A stretch of DNA of 64,000 bases from Rubrobacter calidifluminis. GTDB lineage: Bacteria > Actinomycetota > Rubrobacteria > Rubrobacterales > Rubrobacteraceae. Position 1 is the stretch's first letter. The number at the start of each line of letters is the position of its first letter. Made by a program: the position numbers and the translations under genes. Of the stretch, positions 6,949 through 54,917 are shown piece by piece. The stretch covers positions 124,001 to 188,000 of the forward strand of contig NZ_JAQKGV010000002.1 of assembly GCF_028617075.1 (NCBI RefSeq), written 5' to 3'. The notes under the pieces were generated by a model. That model did not search any database, was not told where the DNA came from, and saw only the letters and a program-made list of their open reading frames with translations.

Positions 6949-7565
6949 TGGCTACGGCAGTATTCGGACGCAAGAAGCACATGACACAGGCCTTCGAGGA
7001 GGACGGCACGCTGGTTGCCGCCACCGTGATCGAGGTCGAGCCCAACTTCGTCGCCGCGGTCAGGACCCCGGAGAAGGACGGCTACCAGGCGGTGCAGCTC
7101 GGCTTCGGCACGGTGCCCTCCCGGAAGGTGAACAGGCCCCACGCCGGGCAGTTCGAGAAGCACGAGACCCCTCCCCGGCGCCATCTGAGGGAGGTGCGCG
7201 GGGCGCAGGCCGAGGTGGGCCAGACCATCGGGGTCGAGGTCTTCGAGGTCGGCGAGAGGGTGGACGTGAGCGCGACGAGCAAGGGCAAGGGCTTCCAGGG
7301 GACCGTCAAGCGCCATGGGTTCGGGCGTGGACCGGTGACGCACGGCTCGCACAACATCCGCCAGCCCGGCTCGGTCGGGGCCTCGGCGGACCCCTCGCGC
7401 ATCTTCCCCGGTCAGCGGATGCCGGGGCACACCGGCGACCGCACCGCGACCATCAAGAACCTGCGGGTGGTGAGGGTCGACCCGGAGAAGAACGAGCTCT
7501 GGGTGCGCGGTGGCGTGCCCGGGGGGCGTGGGGCGATAGTCAGGATCCGGAAGGCGGGTGATTAG
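6948..7565 (+). CDS. rplC: 50S ribosomal protein L3
   Basis: 205-residue early-assembly protein of the large subunit, binding 23S rRNA near the peptidyl transferase centre. The family signature around [17 protein letters not shown] and the extended tip loop [14 protein letters not shown] are present. The ATG overlaps the rpsJ stop; rplD begins across its end. Confidence 0.97.
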
Positions 7566-7566
7566 G

Positions 7567-8196
7567 TTGGCCGAAGCGCAGATCTTCGACGCGAGAAGCG
7601 GCGAGCGTTCTTCGGCCGGGCTGGCCCCCCGCCTCGAGGTGGAGCCCAAGGAGCACGTCATACACCGGGCCGTGGTGGCCGAGCTCGACGCCAGGAGGCG
7701 CTACACGGCCTCGACGAAGGGCCGCAGCGAGGTGCGCGGCTCGGGGGCCAAGCTCTACCGCCAGAAGGGGACCGGACGGGCGCGGGCCGGCGACATCAAG
7801 ACTCCCGTGCGCGTCGGCGGTGGGACCTGGGGCGGTCCGAAGCCGAAGGGCCCCCGCTACGGCAAGCGGATAAACCGCAAGGAGGCGAAGGCCGCCTTCT
7901 ACGGGGCGCTGTCGGCCAAGGCCCGCGAGGGCGAGCTCTACGTGCTGGATTCGCTCGAGTTCGAGAAGCCCTCGACCAAGGAGGCCAGGAAGGTACTCGA
8001 GGGCATGGGGCTCTCTGGTCCGGTGCTCCTCGTGCTCGACCGGGGCGAGGACGACGCGGCACTCTCGTTCAGGAACCTCCCTGAGGTGACGGTCGTCGGG
8101 CCGCACGAGTACGGGGTCTACGAGGTGCTTCGGGCGAAGGAAGTCGTCTTCTCGCGGGCCGCTTACACCAGGCTCGCCGGAGAAGGAGGGAGCTGA
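7567..8196 (+). CDS. rplD: 50S ribosomal protein L4
   Basis: About 209 residues; structural large-subunit protein that in many bacteria also autoregulates the S10 operon. The conserved loop [26 protein letters not shown] is clear. The TTG start at 7567 is preferred because GGTGAT, a full match to the anti-Shine-Dalgarno extension, lies five bases before it and gives the usual N-terminus MAEAQIFD. An in-frame GTG at 7558, overlapping the rplC end, is the alternative. Its TGA overlaps the rplW ATG. Confidence 0.96.
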
Positions 8197-25504: not shown

Positions 25505-25533
25505 TTGACACTGAAACGGCCCGGCAGCATAAT
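25505..25533 (+). promoter_or_regulatory. Sigma70-type promoter upstream of the cobalamin riboswitch
   Basis: TTGACA (25505-25510) and CATAAT (25528-25533) are separated by exactly 17 bases, an almost consensus housekeeping promoter. The expected start near 25540 is just before the riboswitch, so it probably makes the nrdA-nrdB transcript. Confidence 0.85.
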
Positions 25534-25537
25534 GAGA

Positions 25538-25715
25538 GCGGCGCCGGTCGCCGGGCCCTTGGGGTCTGGCGCGAAGAGGGAATCCGGTGAGAATCCGGAG
25601 CTGCCCCGCAGCGGTGAGCGGGAACGAAAGCCGCAAGGGAGGCACTGACCCCTGATCTCCGGGGGCTGGGAAGCCGCGGCGAGTAGGTGGCCTGTGAGCC
25701 CGAAGACCTGCCGGC
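25538..25715 (+). promoter_or_regulatory. Adenosylcobalamin riboswitch controlling nrdAB
   Basis: Conserved cobalamin riboswitch elements occur in order: GGGAATCCGGTGAGAATCCG, GAGCTGCCCCGCAGCGGTGA, CACTG, CTGGGAAGCCG, and the B12 box GAGCCCGAAGACCTGCC (25696-25712). Its position before a B12-independent ribonucleotide reductase is the known arrangement in Streptomyces, where B12 switches the oxygen-dependent enzyme off while a B12-dependent class II enzyme works. The 433 bases between the O-methyltransferase and nrdA hold this element, its promoter and a terminator-like hairpin. Confidence 0.95.
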
Positions 25716-25758
25716 GCTGCCGCCTTTGGGGGCGGGTGGTGGTCTGGCCTTCGAGGGA

Positions 25759-45361: not shown

Positions 45362-46450
45362 TTGTCAAGTGGGTCACCGAAAAAACGCGAGGAGTTGCTG
45401 GTGGAGCTGGAGAGGGAGGTCCGCCAGACGAACGTGCTCGGGGAGTTCTTCTTCCGGGCCATAGCGGACAGGGTCGGGTTGAACGCGATAGATCTGCAGG
45501 TCGTGAACATACTGGACATCACCGGGCCGGTGACGGCGGGTGAGCTCGCGGAGATGACGGGGGTGACGACCGGGGCGATCACGGGTCTTATCAACCGGCT
45601 GGAGAGGGTTGGGCTGGTGCGGCGGGAGAGGGACCCGGGCGACCGCCGGCGGGTGATCGTCCGGCTGGTTCCGAACGAGGAGTTCATGCGTAAGGCCGGT
45701 CCGATCTTCGACTCCATCGGGAGGTCCTGGGCCGGGCTGGTCTCCGACTACGACGACGAGCAGCTGGCCTTCCTGGTGGACTTCCTGAGGCGGAGCAACG
45801 CGATGACCAGGGCTGAGATCTACAAGCTGCGAGGGGGGGAGGGAGGGGAGTTCGTATCACCGCTCGGTGGGGTGGAGCGCGGGAAGCTGGTGTTCGCGGC
45901 CGGGGCGTCGCGGGTGATCATCAGCGCCGACCCGGACCTGGAGGAACTTTACCGGGCGCACTTCGAGGGGCCCTCTCCCGAGGTGAGGGAGAAGGGCGGC
46001 ACCGTCACCATCCGCTATCCGCGGCGCTTCAGGCCGATGGAGTGGCGCAGGAGGTCCGGGAGGGTCACGCTGAACGCCGGAATACCGTGGGAGATCGAGG
46101 TTCGGGGAGGGGCTTCGGAGCTCGTGGCGGACCTCGCGGTTCTCAAGCTCTCCTCGCTCGAGATCAAAGGCGGAGCCAGCAAGGTAGAGGTCTCTCTACC
46201 CGAACTGGAGGGCACGGTGCCGGTGCGCATCTCCGGCGGGGCGAGCGGCATAACGTTGAGCCGCCCGCAGGGGGCGGCCGCGCGGCTGGTCGTGAAGGGA
46301 GGGGTCAGCGGGCTGAATTTCGACGACCAGCACCTCGGCGCGGTGGGAGGGACGCTAAGGCTGCAGAGTAAGGGTTACGAGAGCTCGGAAGACCGCTACG
46401 AGATCGTGCTCTCCGGCGGGGCGAGCAGGCTGGACGTTGTCATCCGCTAG
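45362..46450 (+). CDS. MarR-type regulator fused to a DUF4097-like beta-repeat domain
   Basis: 362 residues. Residues 1-150 form a MarR winged helix (LQVVNILDITGPVTAGELAEMTGVTTGAITGLINRLERVGLVRRERDPGDRRRVIVRL). After a glycine-rich linker, residues 170-362 form a beta-rich domain with repeated short strands ending in GGAS (IEIRGGASELVADL, LEIKGGASKVEVSL, VRISGGASGITLS, IVLSGGASRLDVVIR) like the DUF4097/bactofilin-type beta-helix. Two-domain arrangement is unusual; the second part may sense a surface, lipid or ligand, or oligomerise. TTG 45362 is five bases after GGAGGTGA; GTG 45353 has no spaced site. Stop overlaps the selD stop on the other strand. Confidence 0.88.
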   Translation: MSSGSPKKREELLVELEREVRQTNVLGEFFFRAIADRVGLNAIDLQVVNILDITGPVTAGELAEMTGVTTGAITGLINRLERVGLVRRERDPGDRRRVIVRLVPNEEFMRKAGPIFDSIGRSWAGLVSDYDDEQLAFLVDFLRRSNAMTRAEIYKLRGGEGGEFVSPLGGVERGKLVFAAGASRVIISADPDLEELYRAHFEGPSPEVREKGGTVTIRYPRRFRPMEWRRRSGRVTLNAGIPWEIEVRGGASELVADLAVLKLSSLEIKGGASKVEVSLPELEGTVPVRISGGASGITLSRPQGAAARLVVKGGVSGLNFDDQHLGAVGGTLRLQSKGYESSEDRYEIVLSGGASRLDVVIR

Positions 46451-47481
46451 GGGATCACCCTGACTCCGGAGTCTTCCGTGACCTCCCCGATGATGTTCGC
46501 GAGCTCCCCGCGGGCCTTCAGCGCCTGCACCAGCTCTCCGGCTCTCTCCGCCGGGACCGAGAGCAGGAGGCCTCCGCTCGTCTGCGGGTCGTAGAGCGGC
46601 AGGAGGTCTTCCTCCGATACACCGTCCGGGTGCACCTTCTCCTGCAGATAGGTGCGGTTGTTGTTCAGGCCGCCGGGGTAACAGCCCTCTGCGGCGAGCG
46701 AAGAGGCGCGATCGAGCAACGGGACGCTACGCCGGTGCACGATCGCTCCTGTCCCGCTCGCCTCCATCATCTCCAGGAGGTGTCCGAGCAGCCCGTAGCC
46801 GGTGACGTCCGTGGCGGCGGAGACGCCGACCTCGCGGGCCGCGTCGCGGGCGCCGCGGTTGAGGCGGGTGGCCCACCGCACGGTCTCCTCGAGGTGCTTC
46901 TCCGGGAGCAGGTCGCGTTTGAGGGCGGTGGTCAGGATGCCGGTGCCCAGAGGTTTGGTAAGTACGAGAGCGTCGCCGGGGCGTGCCCCGGTGTTCCTGG
47001 TGACCCGATCCTCTTCCACCCAGCCGGTGACAGAGAGGCCGTACTTCGGTTCGTCGTCCTGTACCGAGTGCCCGCCGCAGAGCCTGGCTCCGGCCTCCTC
47101 TATCTTCGAGAGCCCACCGGCGAGGATCTCCCGCAGTATGCCGAGGTCGAGCGAGCAGGGGAAGGCGACCAGGTTCATCGCGGTAAGGGGCTCGCCGCCC
47201 ATCGCGTAGACATCCGAGAGGGCGTTGGCCGCGGCGATCTGGCCGAATCGGTACGGATCGTCCACGATCGGGGTGAAGAAGTCTGCCGTCTGCAGCAAGA
47301 GACCACCCCCGAACGGGATGTAGCCTGCATCGTCGCGGCTCTCTATCCCGCTCACGAGTCCGCCGGCGTCGCCGGGAACGAGTCCCGAGAGTGCCTGCTC
47401 CAGGTCCCCCGGAGCGAACTTCGACGCTCAACCGGCCTTGGTGGAGTACCTGGTGAGCCTTATCCTCGTTCGCTCGTCCAT
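46447..47481 (-). CDS. selD: Selenide, water dikinase with in-frame TGA (selenocysteine)
   Basis: Makes monoselenophosphate from selenide and ATP, the selenium donor for Sec and selenouridine. The ATG is at 47481; codon 18 is TGA (47428-47430 complement), giving STKAG-U-ASKFAPGDL. This aligns with the E. coli active site C17-G-C-K20: Sec18 replaces C17 and Lys21 is the catalytic lysine. A hairpin fitting a bacterial SECIS follows. The rest is canonical: QTADFFTPIVDDPYRFGQIAAANALSDVYAMGG, GGHSVQDDEPKYGLSVTG, ATDVTGYGLLGHLLEM, YDPQTSGGLLLSV. If TGA were read as stop, only an N-terminally truncated SelD starting at 47355 would be called. About 344 residues with Sec. Confidence 0.93.
47397..47415 (-). 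promoter_or_regulatory. Candidate bacterial SECIS hairpin of selD
   Basis: On the minus strand GCTCC and GGAGC pair around the nine-base loop GGGGGACCT, beginning about 12 bases after the TGA. Bacterial SECIS elements lie at this distance and carry a guanine-containing apical loop for SelB. Extra pairing below the stem was not computed. Confidence 0.6.
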
Positions 47482-47635: not shown

Positions 47636-48259
47636 ATGGTGAAGCAAGCCGAGAGAACGGAGCCCAAGCCGCTCGTGCGCCGGCTGCTCCTCGCGCTTTC
47701 CAAAAACCCCGTGATACCCGCGGTGCGCGCCCCGGACGAAACGCTGGAGGAACTGCTCGCCGGGGACCACCCGGCCATCTTCGTCCTCGGCGGGGATGTC
47801 TTCAAGATCGTCGAGCTCTGTCGTCGCGCCCGGCGTCGGCCCCCGGTCTGCATAAACGTGGACATGGTAGGCGGGATAGCCTCCGATGCCAGCGGGCTCG
47901 GGTTCCTCTCCGGCAGGGTGGATGGGATCATCTCAACCCACCGCCACGTCATAGAGATCGCCAGGCAGACCAACCTCATCACCATCCAGCGCCTCTTCGC
48001 CATAGACTCCAGCGCGGTCCGGAGGGGGATGAAGCTCATCCGCCAGGCCGACCCGGACGGCGTGGAGATACTGCCCGGCGTCGTATACCCGGAGATCGCC
48101 GCCGAGTACGCCGGTACCCTCAAGCCGCTCACCCTGGCCGGCGGGCTCGTCCGGGACCGGGGGACCGTGCGCGCTATCGTGGACGCCGGCGCAGCCGGCG
48201 TCTCGACCAGCACCAGGGCGCTCTGGCGCTCCCTTGACGTGGAGCCCGCGAACCTGTAA
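47636..48259 (+). CDS. glpP: Glycerol-3-phosphate-responsive transcription antiterminator
   Basis: 207 residues. NPVIPAVRAPDETLEELLAGDHPAIFVLGGDVFKIVELC, ICINVDMVGGIASDASGLGFL-type phosphate barrel motif (here INVDMVGGIASDASGL), GIISTHRHVIEIARQTNLITIQRLFAID and PGVVYPEI are typical of GlpP, which with glycerol-3-phosphate binds leader mRNA and prevents termination. ATG start. It precedes a leader terminator and the glp/dha genes, which fits the B. subtilis arrangement. RNA binding is inferred from family. Confidence 0.9.
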   Translation: MVKQAERTEPKPLVRRLLLALSKNPVIPAVRAPDETLEELLAGDHPAIFVLGGDVFKIVELCRRARRRPPVCINVDMVGGIASDASGLGFLSGRVDGIISTHRHVIEIARQTNLITIQRLFAIDSSAVRRGMKLIRQADPDGVEILPGVVYPEIAAEYAGTLKPLTLAGGLVRDRGTVRAIVDAGAAGVSTSTRALWRSLDVEPANL

Positions 48260-48309
48260 AGTGAATGCGCATAAATAGTAATCTGCGTTGCGCAGGGCGC
48301 AGAGAGAAG

Positions 48310-48390
48310 AGAGAGCCCCGCGCAGAGCTGCGATAGGTTTGCCGTGCGGCTGCCGCGTCGCGGCTTTGCGCGGGGCTCTCTAGCTTTAGG
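48310..48390 (+). terminator. Leader terminator before glpK, likely GlpP target
   Basis: AGAGAGCCCCGCGCA (48310-48324) pairs perfectly with TGCGCGGGGCTCTCT (48367-48381), 15 bp, and pairing continues inward with GAGCTGCG and CGCGGCTT. AGCTTTAGG follows. It lies between glpP and glpK and would stop transcription unless opened. Its strength and neighbourhood make it the candidate antitermination site. Confidence 0.75.
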
Positions 48391-48520
48391 TGGAGAACCG
48401 CGGGGCGGTATGCTGGGTACGAGGAAAGAGGAGGTGGGGAAGGCGGATTAGGGGTGATCTTTAGACGTGTGACGGAGGCCTTTTGGTCTGGCAGCAGCGG
48501 GGAGGGAGAGGAGGAAGTGT

Positions 48521-50044
48521 ATGCCGGGAGAATACGTACTGGCGGTCGATCAGGGGACCACTAGCTCCAGGGCGATAGTCTTCAACCACGACAGCGCCAC
48601 GGTCGGTGAGGCGCAGAGGGAATTCACCCAGCACTACCCGCGTCCCGGGTGGGTCGAGCACGACGCGAACGAGATCTGGGAGGTCACGCTCGGGGTCATA
48701 AGGGACGCGCTCGAAGATGCCGGGGTCTCGGCCGGCTCGCTCGCGGGGATAGGGATAACCAACCAGCGCGAGACGGTGGTGATGTGGGATCGCAGGACAG
48801 GGGAGCCGGTGCACCGGGCCATCGTCTGGCAGGACCGGAGGGGCGCGGGGATCTGCGACGATCTCGTCGCGCGCGGCTACGAGAAGCTGGTACGGGACAA
48901 AGCCGGGCTTACGGTCGACGCCTACTTCTCCGGTTCGAAGGTCAAGTGGCTTCTGGACAACGTCGAGGGTCTGAGGGAGAAGGCCAGGTCCGGGGAGATC
49001 TGCTTCGGCACGATAGACTCCTGGCTCGTCTACAGGCTCACCGGGGGGCGAGAGCACATAACCGACTACTCGAACGCCTCGCGCACGATGCTCTACAACA
49101 TCTACGACCTCAGGTGGGACGACGAGCTTTTGGAGATGCTCGACGTGCCGCGCGAGATCCTGCCCGAGGTCATGCCCTCCTCTTACGTCTACGGGAAGAC
49201 CGATCCGGACGTCATGTTCGGGGCCGAGGTTCCGATCGCCGGGATCGCCGGAGACCAGCAGGCGGCGCTCTTCGGGGAGGTCGCCTACGAGAGGGGGCTC
49301 ACCAAGAACACCTACGGTACGGGATCGTTCGCGCTGATGAACACCGGCACCGAGGGCATCCGCAGCGGTGGGGATCTGCTGACCACCATAGCCTGGAAGC
49401 TCGGGGACGAGCCGGTCGAGTACGCGCTGGAGGGTGCGATCTTCATCACCGGGGCTGCCGTGCAGTGGCTGCGGGACGGGCTCGGGATAATCCAGAACGC
49501 GGCCGAGACCGAAGATCTCGCCCGCAGCCTGGATTCCAACGACGACGTGTACTTCGTCCCGGCGCTCGTGGGGCTCGGGGCCCCGCACTGGGACTCCTAC
49601 GCCCGGGGGACCATCGTCGGGATCACCCGCGGTACCACCAGGGCGCACCTGGCGCGGGCCGCGCTCGAGAGCATGTGCTACCAGACACGCGACGTGGTCG
49701 AGGCCATGGAGAAAGATTCCGGGATAAAGCTCCCGAGCTTCAAGGCCGACGGTGGGGCCGCGGCGAACCGCTGGATGATGCAGTTCCAGGCGGACATTCT
49801 CGGCGTTCCGGTCGAGGTCCCAGAGACGCTCGAGACCACCGCGCTCGGGGCGGCTTACCTCGCCGGGCTCGCCACCGGCTTCTGGGAGAATAAGGAAGAG
49901 CTGGTGAACCGCTGGCGCCTCAGGCGGCGCTACGAGCCGCAGATGGGCGAGGAGGAGCGTGAGCGGCTCTACGCCCGGTGGAAGGAAGCTCTCGAGCGCT
50001 CCCGGCGGTGGGCCAAAGAAGCCGTCGAGTCGCCGCTGGCCTGA
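48521..50044 (+). CDS. glpK: Glycerol kinase
   Basis: 507 residues; ATP-dependent phosphorylation of glycerol. [20 protein letters not shown] is the first FGGY motif, with the ATP-binding [27 protein letters not shown] and [21 protein letters not shown]. Active-site residues in VIVWQDRR-type ([11 protein letters not shown]) and the FBP-binding region of E. coli cannot be judged. Ribosome site GGGAGGAGGAAG. First gene of the glycerol/DHA operon. Confidence 0.97.
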
Positions 50045-50055
50045 GGAGGCGGAAG

Positions 50056-51057
50056 ATGAAGAAGATCATCAACGCCCCCGAGCGCGTCGTAGAGGAGATG
50101 CTGCGGGGGATGGAGCTCGCCAACCCGGGTCTGATCCGGCTGATCCCCGAGCACAACGTCGTCGTCCGGGCCGACGCCCCCGTCGAAGGCAAGGTCGCGC
50201 TCGTCTCCGGCGGCGGTTCGGGGCACGAACCGACCCACGGCGGGTACGTCGGGCCCGGGATGCTCGACGCCGCCTGCGCCGGGGCCGTCTTCACCAGCCC
50301 CACCCCCGAGCAGATGCTCGAGGCCACCAAGGCCGTGAACGGCGGGGCCGGGGTGTTCTACGTCGTCAAGAACTACACCGGGGACGTCTTGAACTTCGAG
50401 ATGGCCGGGGAGCTCGCCGAGGCCGAGGGGATAGAGACCGACTACGTCGTCACCAACGACGACGTGGCCGTCGAGGACTCCACCTACACCAGCGGGCGGC
50501 GCGGGATCGCGGGTACGATCTTCGTGCACAAGATCTGCGGCGCCGCGGCCGACGACGGCAAGAAGCTCCCCGAGATAAAGGAACTCGCCGAGAGGGTCAA
50601 CGCCAACGTCCGCTCGATGGGGATGGCCCTAACCAGCTGCACGCCGCCGGAGGCCGGGGAGCCCATCTTCCAGATCGCGGACGACGAGATGGAGATCGGG
50701 ATCGGCATCCACGGCGAACCCGGAGCCGAGCGCAGGAAGATAGAACCCGCCGACAGGATAGTCGATCGGATGCTCGAGAAGATCCTCGGCGACTCGGTGG
50801 ACTACTCCGGTTCCGAAGTCGCCGTGATCGTCAACGGGCTCGGCGGCACGCCGTTGATGGAACTCTACGTCGCCTACCAGCACGTACACGACGTGCTGAA
50901 GAGGGAGGGTATCGAGGTCTGGAGGAGGCCTTACATCGGGGACTACATGACGTCTCTCGAGATGGCGGGCTTCTCGATAACGCTCCTGAAGCTGGATGAA
51001 GAGATGAAGCGCTACCTCGCCGCACCCTGCACGGTCGCGGCGGGCAGGCCGTTCTAG
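50056..51057 (+). CDS. dhaK: Dihydroxyacetone kinase, DHA-binding subunit
   Basis: 333 residues. Binds dihydroxyacetone covalently as a hemiaminal; the His is H219 in IGIGIHGEPG. GGGSGHEPTHGGYVGPGMLDAACAG and ALVSGGGSGHEP are the family loop. DhaK needs DhaL-ADP plus DhaM phosphoryl transfer from PEP (all three are in this operon, with glpF inserted between). ATG 50056 follows GGAGGCGGAAG. The open frame upstream belongs to glpK's alternate frame and is not used. Confidence 0.96.
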   Translation: MKKIINAPERVVEEMLRGMELANPGLIRLIPEHNVVVRADAPVEGKVALVSGGGSGHEPTHGGYVGPGMLDAACAGAVFTSPTPEQMLEATKAVNGGAGVFYVVKNYTGDVLNFEMAGELAEAEGIETDYVVTNDDVAVEDSTYTSGRRGIAGTIFVHKICGAAADDGKKLPEIKELAERVNANVRSMGMALTSCTPPEAGEPIFQIADDEMEIGIGIHGEPGAERRKIEPADRIVDRMLEKILGDSVDYSGSEVAVIVNGLGGTPLMELYVAYQHVHDVLKREGIEVWRRPYIGDYMTSLEMAGFSITLLKLDEEMKRYLAAPCTVAAGRPF

Positions 51058-51072
51058 AGGAAAGGAGTAGCT

Positions 51073-52053
51073 ATGGCACAGGCTGCAGCACCACCCAGGC
51101 GAGGCTGGCGTTCCACGGTGTGGGGCGAGCTCTCGGCCGAGTTTCTGGGCACTTTCGTTCTGATAGCCTTCGGAGACGGCGTGGTCGCGATGGCGGTCGC
51201 CGCGCTCAACCAGTCGGGCCGGGCGGAGAACGGGCACACCATCTTCCTGGCCTCCGGCGACTGGTTGCTCATAACCTGGGGCTGGGCGATGGCGGTCGCC
51301 TTCGGCGTCTACGTCGCTGGAGGGATAAGCGGGGCCCACCTGAACCCGGCGGTGACGCTCGCGCTGGCGGCGAAGAGAGACTTCCCGTGGCGCAAGGTTA
51401 TACCGTACATGGTGGCTCAGGTGGTAGGGGCGTTCGTGGGCGCCGCCCTGGTGTATCTCGTCTACCACAACGCGATAGCTAGCTTCGAGCAGGCGAACCA
51501 CATAACCAGGGGCGATCCGGCTTCCAACACGACCTTCTCGATCTTCGCGACCTTCCCCGCCCCGTACTTCCACGGCAGCATGGTGGGACCGCTCATCGAC
51601 CAGATCGTGGGCACGATGTTCCTCGTCATGTTCGTCTTCGCGCTCACCGACGACCGCAACCAGCCCCCGCTGTCCAACATGGCCCCGTTCCTCGTCGGCA
51701 TGGCGGTAGCGGCGATAGGTATGTCCTACGGGGCGAACGCGGGTTATGCGATAAACCCGGCCCGTGACTTCGGACCCAGGCTGCTGGCTTGGTTCGCCGG
51801 CTGGGGGCAGGTGGCGATGCCGGGTACGGTAAAGGGGTCGTTCAGCAACTACTTCTGGGTTCCGATAGTCGGACCGCTGGTTGGAGGGGTGATCGGCGCC
51901 TACGTCTACGACTTCTTCATCCGGAACGTGCTCCTCTCCAGAGGACAGCCGCCGACGCCGGCCGTGGAGGCCCAGGGGGAGACCAACGTTGATCAGCGCG
52001 GAGCGGACACCGGACGCGAGGCCGAGCCCCGGGGGAGGACTGTAAAGGAGTAG
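51073..52053 (+). CDS. glpF: Glycerol uptake facilitator, aquaglyceroporin
   Basis: 326 residues with six predicted membrane spans and two half-helices bearing the NPA motifs: GAHLNPAVTLAL and GYAINPARDFGPR. The arginine after the second NPA is the selectivity filter. Extracellular loops are longer than in E. coli GlpF (281 residues) and a hydrophilic C-terminal tail of about 40 residues is present. Imports glycerol for GlpK. Follows dhaK by 15 bases. Confidence 0.94.
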   Translation: MAQAAAPPRRGWRSTVWGELSAEFLGTFVLIAFGDGVVAMAVAALNQSGRAENGHTIFLASGDWLLITWGWAMAVAFGVYVAGGISGAHLNPAVTLALAAKRDFPWRKVIPYMVAQVVGAFVGAALVYLVYHNAIASFEQANHITRGDPASNTTFSIFATFPAPYFHGSMVGPLIDQIVGTMFLVMFVFALTDDRNQPPLSNMAPFLVGMAVAAIGMSYGANAGYAINPARDFGPRLLAWFAGWGQVAMPGTVKGSFSNYFWVPIVGPLVGGVIGAYVYDFFIRNVLLSRGQPPTPAVEAQGETNVDQRGADTGREAEPRGRTVKE

Positions 52054-52078
52054 GATGTTCTACCGGTGCGGGGCTGGA

Positions 52079-52118
52079 GGCGGAGGTCCGGCGCGAGGCG
52101 GCCGGACCTCCGCCTTCC
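52079..52118 (+). terminator. Hairpin between glpF and dhaL
   Basis: GGCGGAGGTCCGG (52079-52091) pairs with CCGGACCTCCGCC (52102-52114), 13 bp with a ten-base loop, followed by TTCCCC. It falls inside the operon, so it may partially end transcription or stabilise mRNA ends and lower dhaL-dhaM expression. Confidence 0.6.
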
Positions 52119-52153
52119 CCGGGATGTGATGGTTCCCTGAGAAAGGAGTTTTC

Positions 52154-52783
52154 TTGAGTTCCGCTGAGTCTACGATCGCGGTCGTGAGGGCGATGGCCGC
52201 CGCGGTGGAGGAGCACCGGCAGGAGCTGACCCGGCTCGACTCGAAGATCGGCGACGGCGACCACGGGACGAACATGCACCGGGGCTTTCAGGCCGCGCTG
52301 GAGCGTCTGGAGACAGACGCTCCGTCCACACCCTCCGACGTGCTCAAGGCCGTCTCGATGGCGCTGATCAGTAAGGTGGGCGGGGCCGCCGGCCCGCTCT
52401 ACGGCACGGCTTTTCTCAGGGCTTCCTCCGCGCTCTCAGGCAAGGAAGAGCCGGATGCTTCGGACGCGGTGGAGGCGATGGAGGCGGCCCTCGCTGGCAT
52501 CAAGCAGAGGGGCAAGGCCGAGGTGGGTGACAAGACTATGGTCGACGCGCTCGAGCCCGCGGTCGAGGCGGCTAGGAAGGAGGCCGGGTCCTCGGGGGAC
52601 GTGGGCCGGGTGCTCCGGGCGGCGGCCGAGGCGGCAGCCCAGGGGGCGGAGTCGACTGTTCCGCTCGCCGCCCGGCGCGGGAGGGCGAGCTACCTCGGTC
52701 AGCGGGCCGCAGGGCACAAGGACCCCGGGGCGGCCTCCATGCACCTGCTGCTGGACGCCGCGGCCCTGGCTTTGGAGGCGTGA
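52154..52783 (+). CDS. dhaL: Dihydroxyacetone kinase, ADP-binding subunit
   Basis: 209 residues. Aspartates of the magnesium-ADP site are in RLDSKIGDGDHGTNM; GGAAGPLYGTAFLRAS and GDKTMVDALEPAVEAA are signature blocks. TTG start ten bases after AAAGGAG. Bound ADP is phosphorylated by DhaM and passes phosphate to DHA on DhaK. Confidence 0.95.
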   Translation: MSSAESTIAVVRAMAAAVEEHRQELTRLDSKIGDGDHGTNMHRGFQAALERLETDAPSTPSDVLKAVSMALISKVGGAAGPLYGTAFLRASSALSGKEEPDASDAVEAMEAALAGIKQRGKAEVGDKTMVDALEPAVEAARKEAGSSGDVGRVLRAAAEAAAQGAESTVPLAARRGRASYLGQRAAGHKDPGAASMHLLLDAAALALEA

Positions 52784-53175
52784 TGGCAACGGGCCTGGTG
52801 CTCGTCTCCCACAGCCCCGAGATAGCTTCGGGCACGGCGGAGCTGGTGCGGCAGATGGCCGGAGATGTCGAGGTCCGGGCCGTCGGGGGGGATCCGGACG
52901 GCGCCCTCGGAACCGACCCGGACAGGATAGGGAACGCCATAGAGGAGATCGGGACGGACGAAATCCTCATCTTTATGGATATCGGGAGCGCGGTCCTCTC
53001 GGCCGAGGCGGTGATTGAGATGCTCGACGAGGGACTCAGGGAGCGGGTCCATCTGGTCGACGCCCCATTCGTCGAGGGGGCGTTCGCAGCCGGGGTGGTC
53101 GCCTCCGCAGGCGCCGACGCCCGGGAGTGCATGGAGGCGGCCCGGCAGGCCAGGACGGAGCCGAAGCTGCATTAG
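52783..53175 (+). CDS. dhaM: PTS-dependent dihydroxyacetone phosphotransferase subunit
   Basis: 130 residues, only the EIIA-mannose-like domain. The phosphorylated histidine is H10 in LVLVSHSPEIASGTAELV; GNAIEEIGTDEILIFMDIGSAVLSAE is typical. E. coli DhaM also carries HPr and partial EI domains; here they are absent, so separate EI and HPr must supply phosphate. ATG overlaps the dhaL stop. Confidence 0.93.
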   Translation: MATGLVLVSHSPEIASGTAELVRQMAGDVEVRAVGGDPDGALGTDPDRIGNAIEEIGTDEILIFMDIGSAVLSAEAVIEMLDEGLRERVHLVDAPFVEGAFAAGVVASAGADARECMEAARQARTEPKLH

Positions 53176-53252
53176 GGGATGTGCTTGCTCTTCCTGACCT
53201 CCGCCGGTGAGCCGGGTACAAAATGAATGTGCAGCCAGAGGAAGGAGCGGGT

Positions 53253-54917
53253 ATGACGCGCAAGGTACCGGGTGACATAGAGCAGTACCCCTTTGATCTC
53301 ATCGTCGTCGGGGCCGGGATAAACGGGGCCGGGATCGCCCGCGACGCGGCGATGCGAGGTCTACGCGTGCTGCTCCTGGACAAGGGGGACATCTCCAACG
53401 GGACCACCCAGTGGGCGACCAGGCTCATCCACGGGGGGCTCAGGTACCTGGAGTACTACGAGGTGGCTCTGGTGCGCGAGTCGCTGCACGACAGGGAGAT
53501 CCTGCTGCGCATAGCCCCGCACCTGGTCAGGCCGCTCGGGTTCATGGTCCCGATCTACGAGCGCTCCAGGCGCGGGCCGCGCATGATCCGGCTGGGGATG
53601 ATCGCCTACGACATCCTCTCCTACGAGAAGAGCATGCCGCGCCACAGGATGTTTGACCGGGAGGGGGCGCTTGAGCGCGAGCCGGGCCTCAACCCCGATG
53701 GTCTGCTCGGTGCCGCCTTCTACTACGACGCGCAGGCCGAGTACGCCGAGCGGCTGGCGGTCGAGAACGCCATCAGCGCGCGAGAGCACGGGGCGATGGT
53801 CATCACCTACGCGAAGGTCGAGCGGCTCTTGCGCGAGGGAAAGAACGTGGTCGGGGTGGAGTTCTCCGACCTGCTCGACGGCGGCAGGCGCCGCGTCGCC
53901 CGCGCCCCGGTCACGGTCAACGTCTCGGGGCCGTGGGTGGACGAGGTGCTGGGCAACCTCTCCCCGAAGCGCATGATCGGCGGCACCAAGGGCAGTCACC
54001 TGGTCGTCGACCCGTTCCCCGGGGCGCCCAGGAACGAGGCGCTCTACGTCGAAGCCCGCAGGGACGGGCGTCCCTACTTCATCGTGCCCTGGAACGGGCG
54101 CTACCTCATCGGCACGACCGACATCCCCTACGAGGGGGACCTCGACTACGTCTCGGCCGAGGAGTGGGAGATAGAGTACCTGCTCGAAGAGACCAACCAC
54201 GTCATCCCGCAGGCGGGTCTCACCCGCCAGGACGTACTCTACACCTACGCCGGCGTCCGGCCGCTGCCCTACGAGCCCGACGCCGACGCCGGCAGCATCA
54301 CGAGGAGTCACATCGTCTACGATCACGCCCGGCACGAACCGCGTCTGGAGGGCCTCATCTCGATCATAGGGGGCAAGCTCACCACCTACCGTAACCTCGG
54401 GCGTCAGACGACGGACATGGTCTACAGGAAGCTCGGGCAGAAGCCGCCGAAGAGCGCGACCTCCATCGTCCCCCTGCCCGGCGGCAGGACCGGCGACTTC
54501 GAGTCGTTCTCGGAGCGCTTCAAGGCCGAGAGCGGGCTCCTGCCCCAGATCTCCGAGCGGCTGCTCAAGCTCTACGGGGCCCGGGCGTGGGACGTGCTCG
54601 AGATGGCCGGGGAAGACCCTTCGCTCAGGGAGCCGCTCGTCACGCCCGCCACCGTGCAGAACGGGCTCATCGGGGCCGAGGTACTCTACTCCTTCGAGCG
54701 GGAGATGGCCGAGAAGCTCTCCGACGTGCTCCTCAGGAGGAGCATGGCCGCGCTCGACCGGGAGGCCGGGCTCGACGTCGACGAGGCGGCGGCGAAGGTG
54801 GCGGCGAGGCACTTCGGGTGGGACGAGGAGCGTACGGAAGGCGAGGTGGAGGAGTACCGCGATTACATCCGGCGCTACCACCCGAAGGCCCTGCAGGAAA
54901 CCTCGGGACGCAGATAA
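53253..54917 (+). CDS. glpD: Glycerol-3-phosphate dehydrogenase (FAD-dependent)
   Basis: 554 residues; oxidises glycerol-3-phosphate to dihydroxyacetone phosphate, passing electrons to the quinone pool; membrane-associated. FAD-binding LIVVGAGINGAGIARDAAMRGLRVLLLDKGD, then LIHGGLRYLE, GTKGSHLVV, and C-terminal GGKLTTYRNLGRQTTDMV are conserved. ATG 53253 lies six bases after GGAAGGAG; ATG 53223 would add ten codons without a good site. Ends the glp/dha operon. Confidence 0.96.
   Translation: MTRKVPGDIEQYPFDLIVVGAGINGAGIARDAAMRGLRVLLLDKGDISNGTTQWATRLIHGGLRYLEYYEVALVRESLHDREILLRIAPHLVRPLGFMVPIYERSRRGPRMIRLGMIAYDILSYEKSMPRHRMFDREGALEREPGLNPDGLLGAAFYYDAQAEYAERLAVENAISAREHGAMVITYAKVERLLREGKNVVGVEFSDLLDGGRRRVARAPVTVNVSGPWVDEVLGNLSPKRMIGGTKGSHLVVDPFPGAPRNEALYVEARRDGRPYFIVPWNGRYLIGTTDIPYEGDLDYVSAEEWEIEYLLEETNHVIPQAGLTRQDVLYTYAGVRPLPYEPDADAGSITRSHIVYDHARHEPRLEGLISIIGGKLTTYRNLGRQTTDMVYRKLGQKPPKSATSIVPLPGGRTGDFESFSERFKAESGLLPQISERLLKLYGARAWDVLEMAGEDPSLREPLVTPATVQNGLIGAEVLYSFEREMAEKLSDVLLRRSMAALDREAGLDVDEAAAKVAARHFGWDEERTEGEVEEYRDYIRRYHPKALQETSGRR

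Follow-up and report, generated by a model that had tools for sequence, protein, structure and literature searches.

The selD gene of Rubrobacter calidifluminis contains an in-frame TGA at codon 18 and is almost certainly a standard bacterial selD in which the catalytic cysteine is encoded as selenocysteine (Sec). The gene is located on the minus strand at positions 46447 to 47481 of the window, i.e., the whole stretch of 64,000 nucleotides that was analysed, and its predicted product is a selenophosphate synthetase (selenide, water dikinase) of 344 amino acids. The reading frame starts with the ATG at 47481, ends with the TAG at 46449 to 46447, and has the TGA at 47430 to 47428 as its sole internal stop; the N-terminus of the minus-strand translation reads MDERTRIRLTRYSTKAG-U-ASKFAPGDL. 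When the product was translated with read-through of the TGA, the SelD profile TIGR00476 matched with 357.9 bits (E=4e-107), far above its curated equivalog cut-off of 125 bits, covering profile positions 1 to 310 of 311 and beginning at residue 8. AIRS and AIRS_C domains were found as well. An alignment to E. coli SelD (PDB 3u0o, the Cys form) showed full-length homology and placed U18 over Cys17 and K21, encoded by the AAG codon at 47419 to 47421, over the essential Lys20, whereas Cys19 of the E. coli protein is replaced by Ser20. The catalytic Cys/Sec and the lysine of the N-terminal glycine-rich loop of SelD are thus represented by U18 and K21, and lysine occupies the latter position in all Rubrobacteraceae SelD sequences examined. 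These results confirmed what a sequence-only reading of the same DNA had proposed, namely, a TGA at codon 18 of a frame opening at 47481, aligned with the catalytic Cys17 of E. coli SelD, followed three residues later by the essential lysine and flanked on both sides by continuous, family-like sequence.

The same reading had anticipated that a gene caller would truncate the protein at 47355. Indeed, the longest open reading frame in this frame under translation table 11 starts with the GTG at 47355 and extends to 46447 (minus strand), giving a product of 302 amino acids that lacks both Sec18 and Lys21. If the UGA were a true stop, a shorter active protein could be translated from this GTG; the frame is open and contains the AIRS domains. 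We consider this very improbable, as such a product would be devoid of the catalytic residue and of Lys21, both of which belong to a conserved N-terminal region encoded upstream of 47355, and the synonymous constraint just past the TGA (see below) fits a coding region harbouring a bacterial Sec insertion element (bSECIS). Reading codon 18 as Sec corrects the annotation, since without recoding selD loses its catalytic residue.

The conservation of the TGA was analysed in 40 Rubrobacteraceae genomes, 34 of which gave selD matches. Codon 18 was TGA in all 30 family selD loci that could be read across the site, including those of the single-contig genomes G015 and G016, and the corresponding proteins were 64 to 93% identical to the query. 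Because the TGA recurs in 30 of 30 loci, its presence at this codon is more than chance. Cys in a different frame in the SelD of close relatives, which the sequence-only reading had named as evidence that would speak against it, was not what the relatives have: they carry TGA in the same frame. Among 76 more distant selD loci, the aligned codon was TGA in 64 and TGT or TGC in 9, with 3 not resolved by motif search. The in-frame UGA is thus aligned with Sec or Cys of its homologues, and judged from these alignments the exchange between TGA and Cys codons has the signature of a selenoprotein. A sequencing error at a genuine TGC or TGT codon, or a pseudogene, would be the obvious alternative for a draft genome of 54 contigs, all the more so with decayed 5' remnants of selD existing in two relatives (G019 and G022). 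Conservation over many assemblies, however, appears to exclude both, the remainder of selD is intact, and the genome encodes the full Sec machinery, so that we regard this alternative as extremely improbable.

Two partial, stop-free selD matches were set aside. The one in G018 comprises only residues 91 to 342, which leaves the site outside the piece, and the one in G019 is a decayed 5' remnant in which TGG replaces TGA. The latter is located on the minus strand of contig C28 near 7464 to 7577, with a stop soon after the TGG, and an intact selD is also present in G019; a comparable decayed 5' fragment was seen in G022 (C308, about 2395 to 2561). These fragments may be remnants of a selD duplication or assembly artefacts. 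In G006, codon 6 of selD, a position mostly occupied by Arg in relatives, is also an in-frame TGA; this second TGA probably reflects an assembly error or a local mutation.

Downstream of the TGA, where the sequence-only reading had suggested a bSECIS scan (47380 to 47430), an upper stem-loop is predicted at 47415 to 47397 on the minus strand (GCUCCGGG-GGA-CCUGGAGC). It consists of an 8-bp stem and a 3-nt apical loop with G at loop positions 1 and 2, at a distance of 20 nt between UGA and loop, and has a minimum free energy (MFE) of -15.8 kcal/mol when calculated for the 40 nt after the UGA and of -18.4 kcal/mol for 46 nt. The published bSECIS model specifies a loop of 3 to 9 nt beginning with GG, a stem of 4 to 16 bp, a location 16 to 37 nt from the UGA, and an MFE of at most -7.5 kcal/mol (PMC13188914). 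The selD hairpin lies within every one of these limits, and a comparison with the consensus of that model revealed no difference in loop, stem, GG, spacing, or MFE. Within the family, all eight pairs are retained in 28 of the 30 loci and seven pairs in the other 2, and the loop reads GGN at identical spacing in every locus. In 27 family selD genes, codons 22 to 28, which form the hairpin, displayed the lowest synonymous entropy of all 169 six-column windows in the gene; specifically, GCT was used in 25 of the 27 genes, and GGG, CTG, and GAG were used in all 27. Note that the fold of a single sequence carries little weight here because the DNA is GC-rich: the MFE of the hairpin region was unexceptional in comparison with dinucleotide shuffles (z from -0.73 to -1.75), and in a loose model about 4% of the 1376 TGA triplets in the 64-kb window are followed by a stem of at least 8 bp, only two of these having a 3-nt loop that starts with GG. 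The case for the predicted bSECIS accordingly rests on conservation and not on one fold, and synonymous constraint is a stronger test of the recoding signal than single-sequence folding. The stem is nearly invariant within the family, leaving almost no covariation to score.

A selenocysteine codon in selD implied a full Sec system in the organism, as the sequence-only reading had pointed out, and such a system was found. On contig C16, i.e., a contig other than that of selD, selA (G000:C16:75877-77190; 518 bits), selB (G000:C16:77231-79030; 335 bits, above the curated cut-off), and the tRNA-Sec gene selC (G000:C16:79068-79158; 69.7 bits; anticodon UCA according to ARAGORN) follow one another within 3.3 kb (C16:75877-79158). 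The absence of selB and selC, which had been named as evidence that would speak against the proposal, is hence not what the genome displays. The fold of the tRNA-Sec has 12 pairs, instead of 13, in the acceptor plus T stems, and two positions of the Rfam consensus are missing between the acceptor and D stems; in this it resembles the tRNA-Sec of Rubrobacter xylanophilus, reported in 2017 to possess an unusual 12-bp acceptor/T stack (PMC5330540). A tRNA-Sec was detected in 30 of the 40 Rubrobacteraceae genomes, representing all 13 genera, and most of the genomes without one are fragmentary assemblies. The Sec trait is thus widespread in the Rubrobacteraceae. A search of the genome with TIGR03167 for mnmH (ybbB), responsible for selenouridine, gave no match, whereas the E. 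coli control was detected; absence of mnmH in Actinobacteria is also reported in PMC1794560. Since mnmH is absent, SelD of R. calidifluminis most likely serves selenocysteine alone.

Besides SelD, targeted searches for in-frame TGAs in two families, formate dehydrogenase alpha and AhpC-TSA, yielded four further genes with a TGA at Sec/Cys catalytic sites, two of the FdhA type and two peroxiredoxin-like (G000:C21:24733-26760; C3:63550-64293; C8:12917-13288; C3:76617-77051). The TGA is found in the motif NRA-U-HAASVTGL of an FdhA scoring above the family cut-off, in ARI-U-HSSTVPGL of an FdhA-like gene, and in GDW-U-PYC and LG-U-IFC of the two peroxiredoxin-like genes (UxxC). The genome thus appears to encode at least five selenoproteins including SelD, as predicted from these motifs, and the true number may be higher because only two families besides SelD were sampled. 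The four additional genes are likely mis-called as well. When the window was compared with G028, a genome of the same genus, to find further conserved in-frame TGAs, many false candidates arose, with all frames looking conserved, because the two are about 91 to 97% identical in DNA. A genome-wide reassignment of UGA, to Trp or to Gly as in code 25, would place that amino acid at residue 18. Nothing specific favours it, and its probability is negligible: TGA is the stop codon of the neighbouring full-length FGGY-kinase gene (48521 to 50044), the in-frame TGAs that were found are positioned at Sec/Cys catalytic sites, and the genome possesses SelB and a tRNA-Sec with a UCA anticodon.

Two other features of the window were recorded. 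A glycerol/dihydroxyacetone gene group adjoins selD on the plus strand (47636 to 54917) and comprises genes for a G3P-responsive antiterminator, an FGGY kinase, Dak1, an MIP channel, and a glycerol-3-phosphate oxidase-like DAO protein. A Cobalamin riboswitch (RF00174, 113 bits) is located at 25528 to 25729 on the plus strand.

From the sequence evidence, we infer Sec insertion at codon 18 and enzymatic activity of SelD. Translation would start at the ATG at 47481, and a ribosome arriving at the UGA of codon 18 would meet the bSECIS hairpin, which has its loop 20 nt further on and would recruit SelB, GTP, and Sec-tRNA-Sec; Sec would then be inserted and translation continue to the TAG at 46449 to 46447. 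The resulting SelD would use Sec18 and Lys21 to convert selenide and ATP to selenophosphate, which would be passed via SelA to Sec-tRNA-Sec and thereby supply SelD itself and at least four other predicted selenoproteins. The self-dependence of Sec-SelD is a general puzzle. A profile search of the 54-contig draft detected a single selD locus and no Cys-type SelD. As SelD is itself dependent on Sec and a Cys-type alternative was not detected in the genome, the system might form an obligate self-feeding loop that could not restart once both SelD and Sec-tRNA were lost, unless it is bootstrapped by basal read-through or by a low-activity SelD with another residue at position 18. We put this forward only tentatively, as it is more doubtful than probable; if true, the Rubrobacteraceae would provide one more test case.

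Only one other selenoprotein is more widespread among prokaryotes than Sec-SelD. For R. xylanophilus, Zhang et al. (2006, PMC1794560) give five selenoproteins and name SelD in their tabulation of families that sister organisms have lost. The claim of the sequence-only reading that SelD is a known selenoprotein in some bacteria therefore holds; according to this source, it is common and reported from Rubrobacter. The Sec-SelD proteins of R. xylanophilus and R. calidifluminis are alike in having Sec at the catalytic Cys position, in the bacterial Sec machinery, and in family, the species being the sole difference. Five selenoproteins were likewise predicted in R. calidifluminis, but the available text does not itemise the five of R. 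xylanophilus, so that the two sets can be compared by number only. Overall, the finding of a predicted Sec-SelD in R. calidifluminis is correct and ordinary, of use chiefly for annotation; it concerns a lineage for which Sec-SelD has already been reported and involves no new mechanism.
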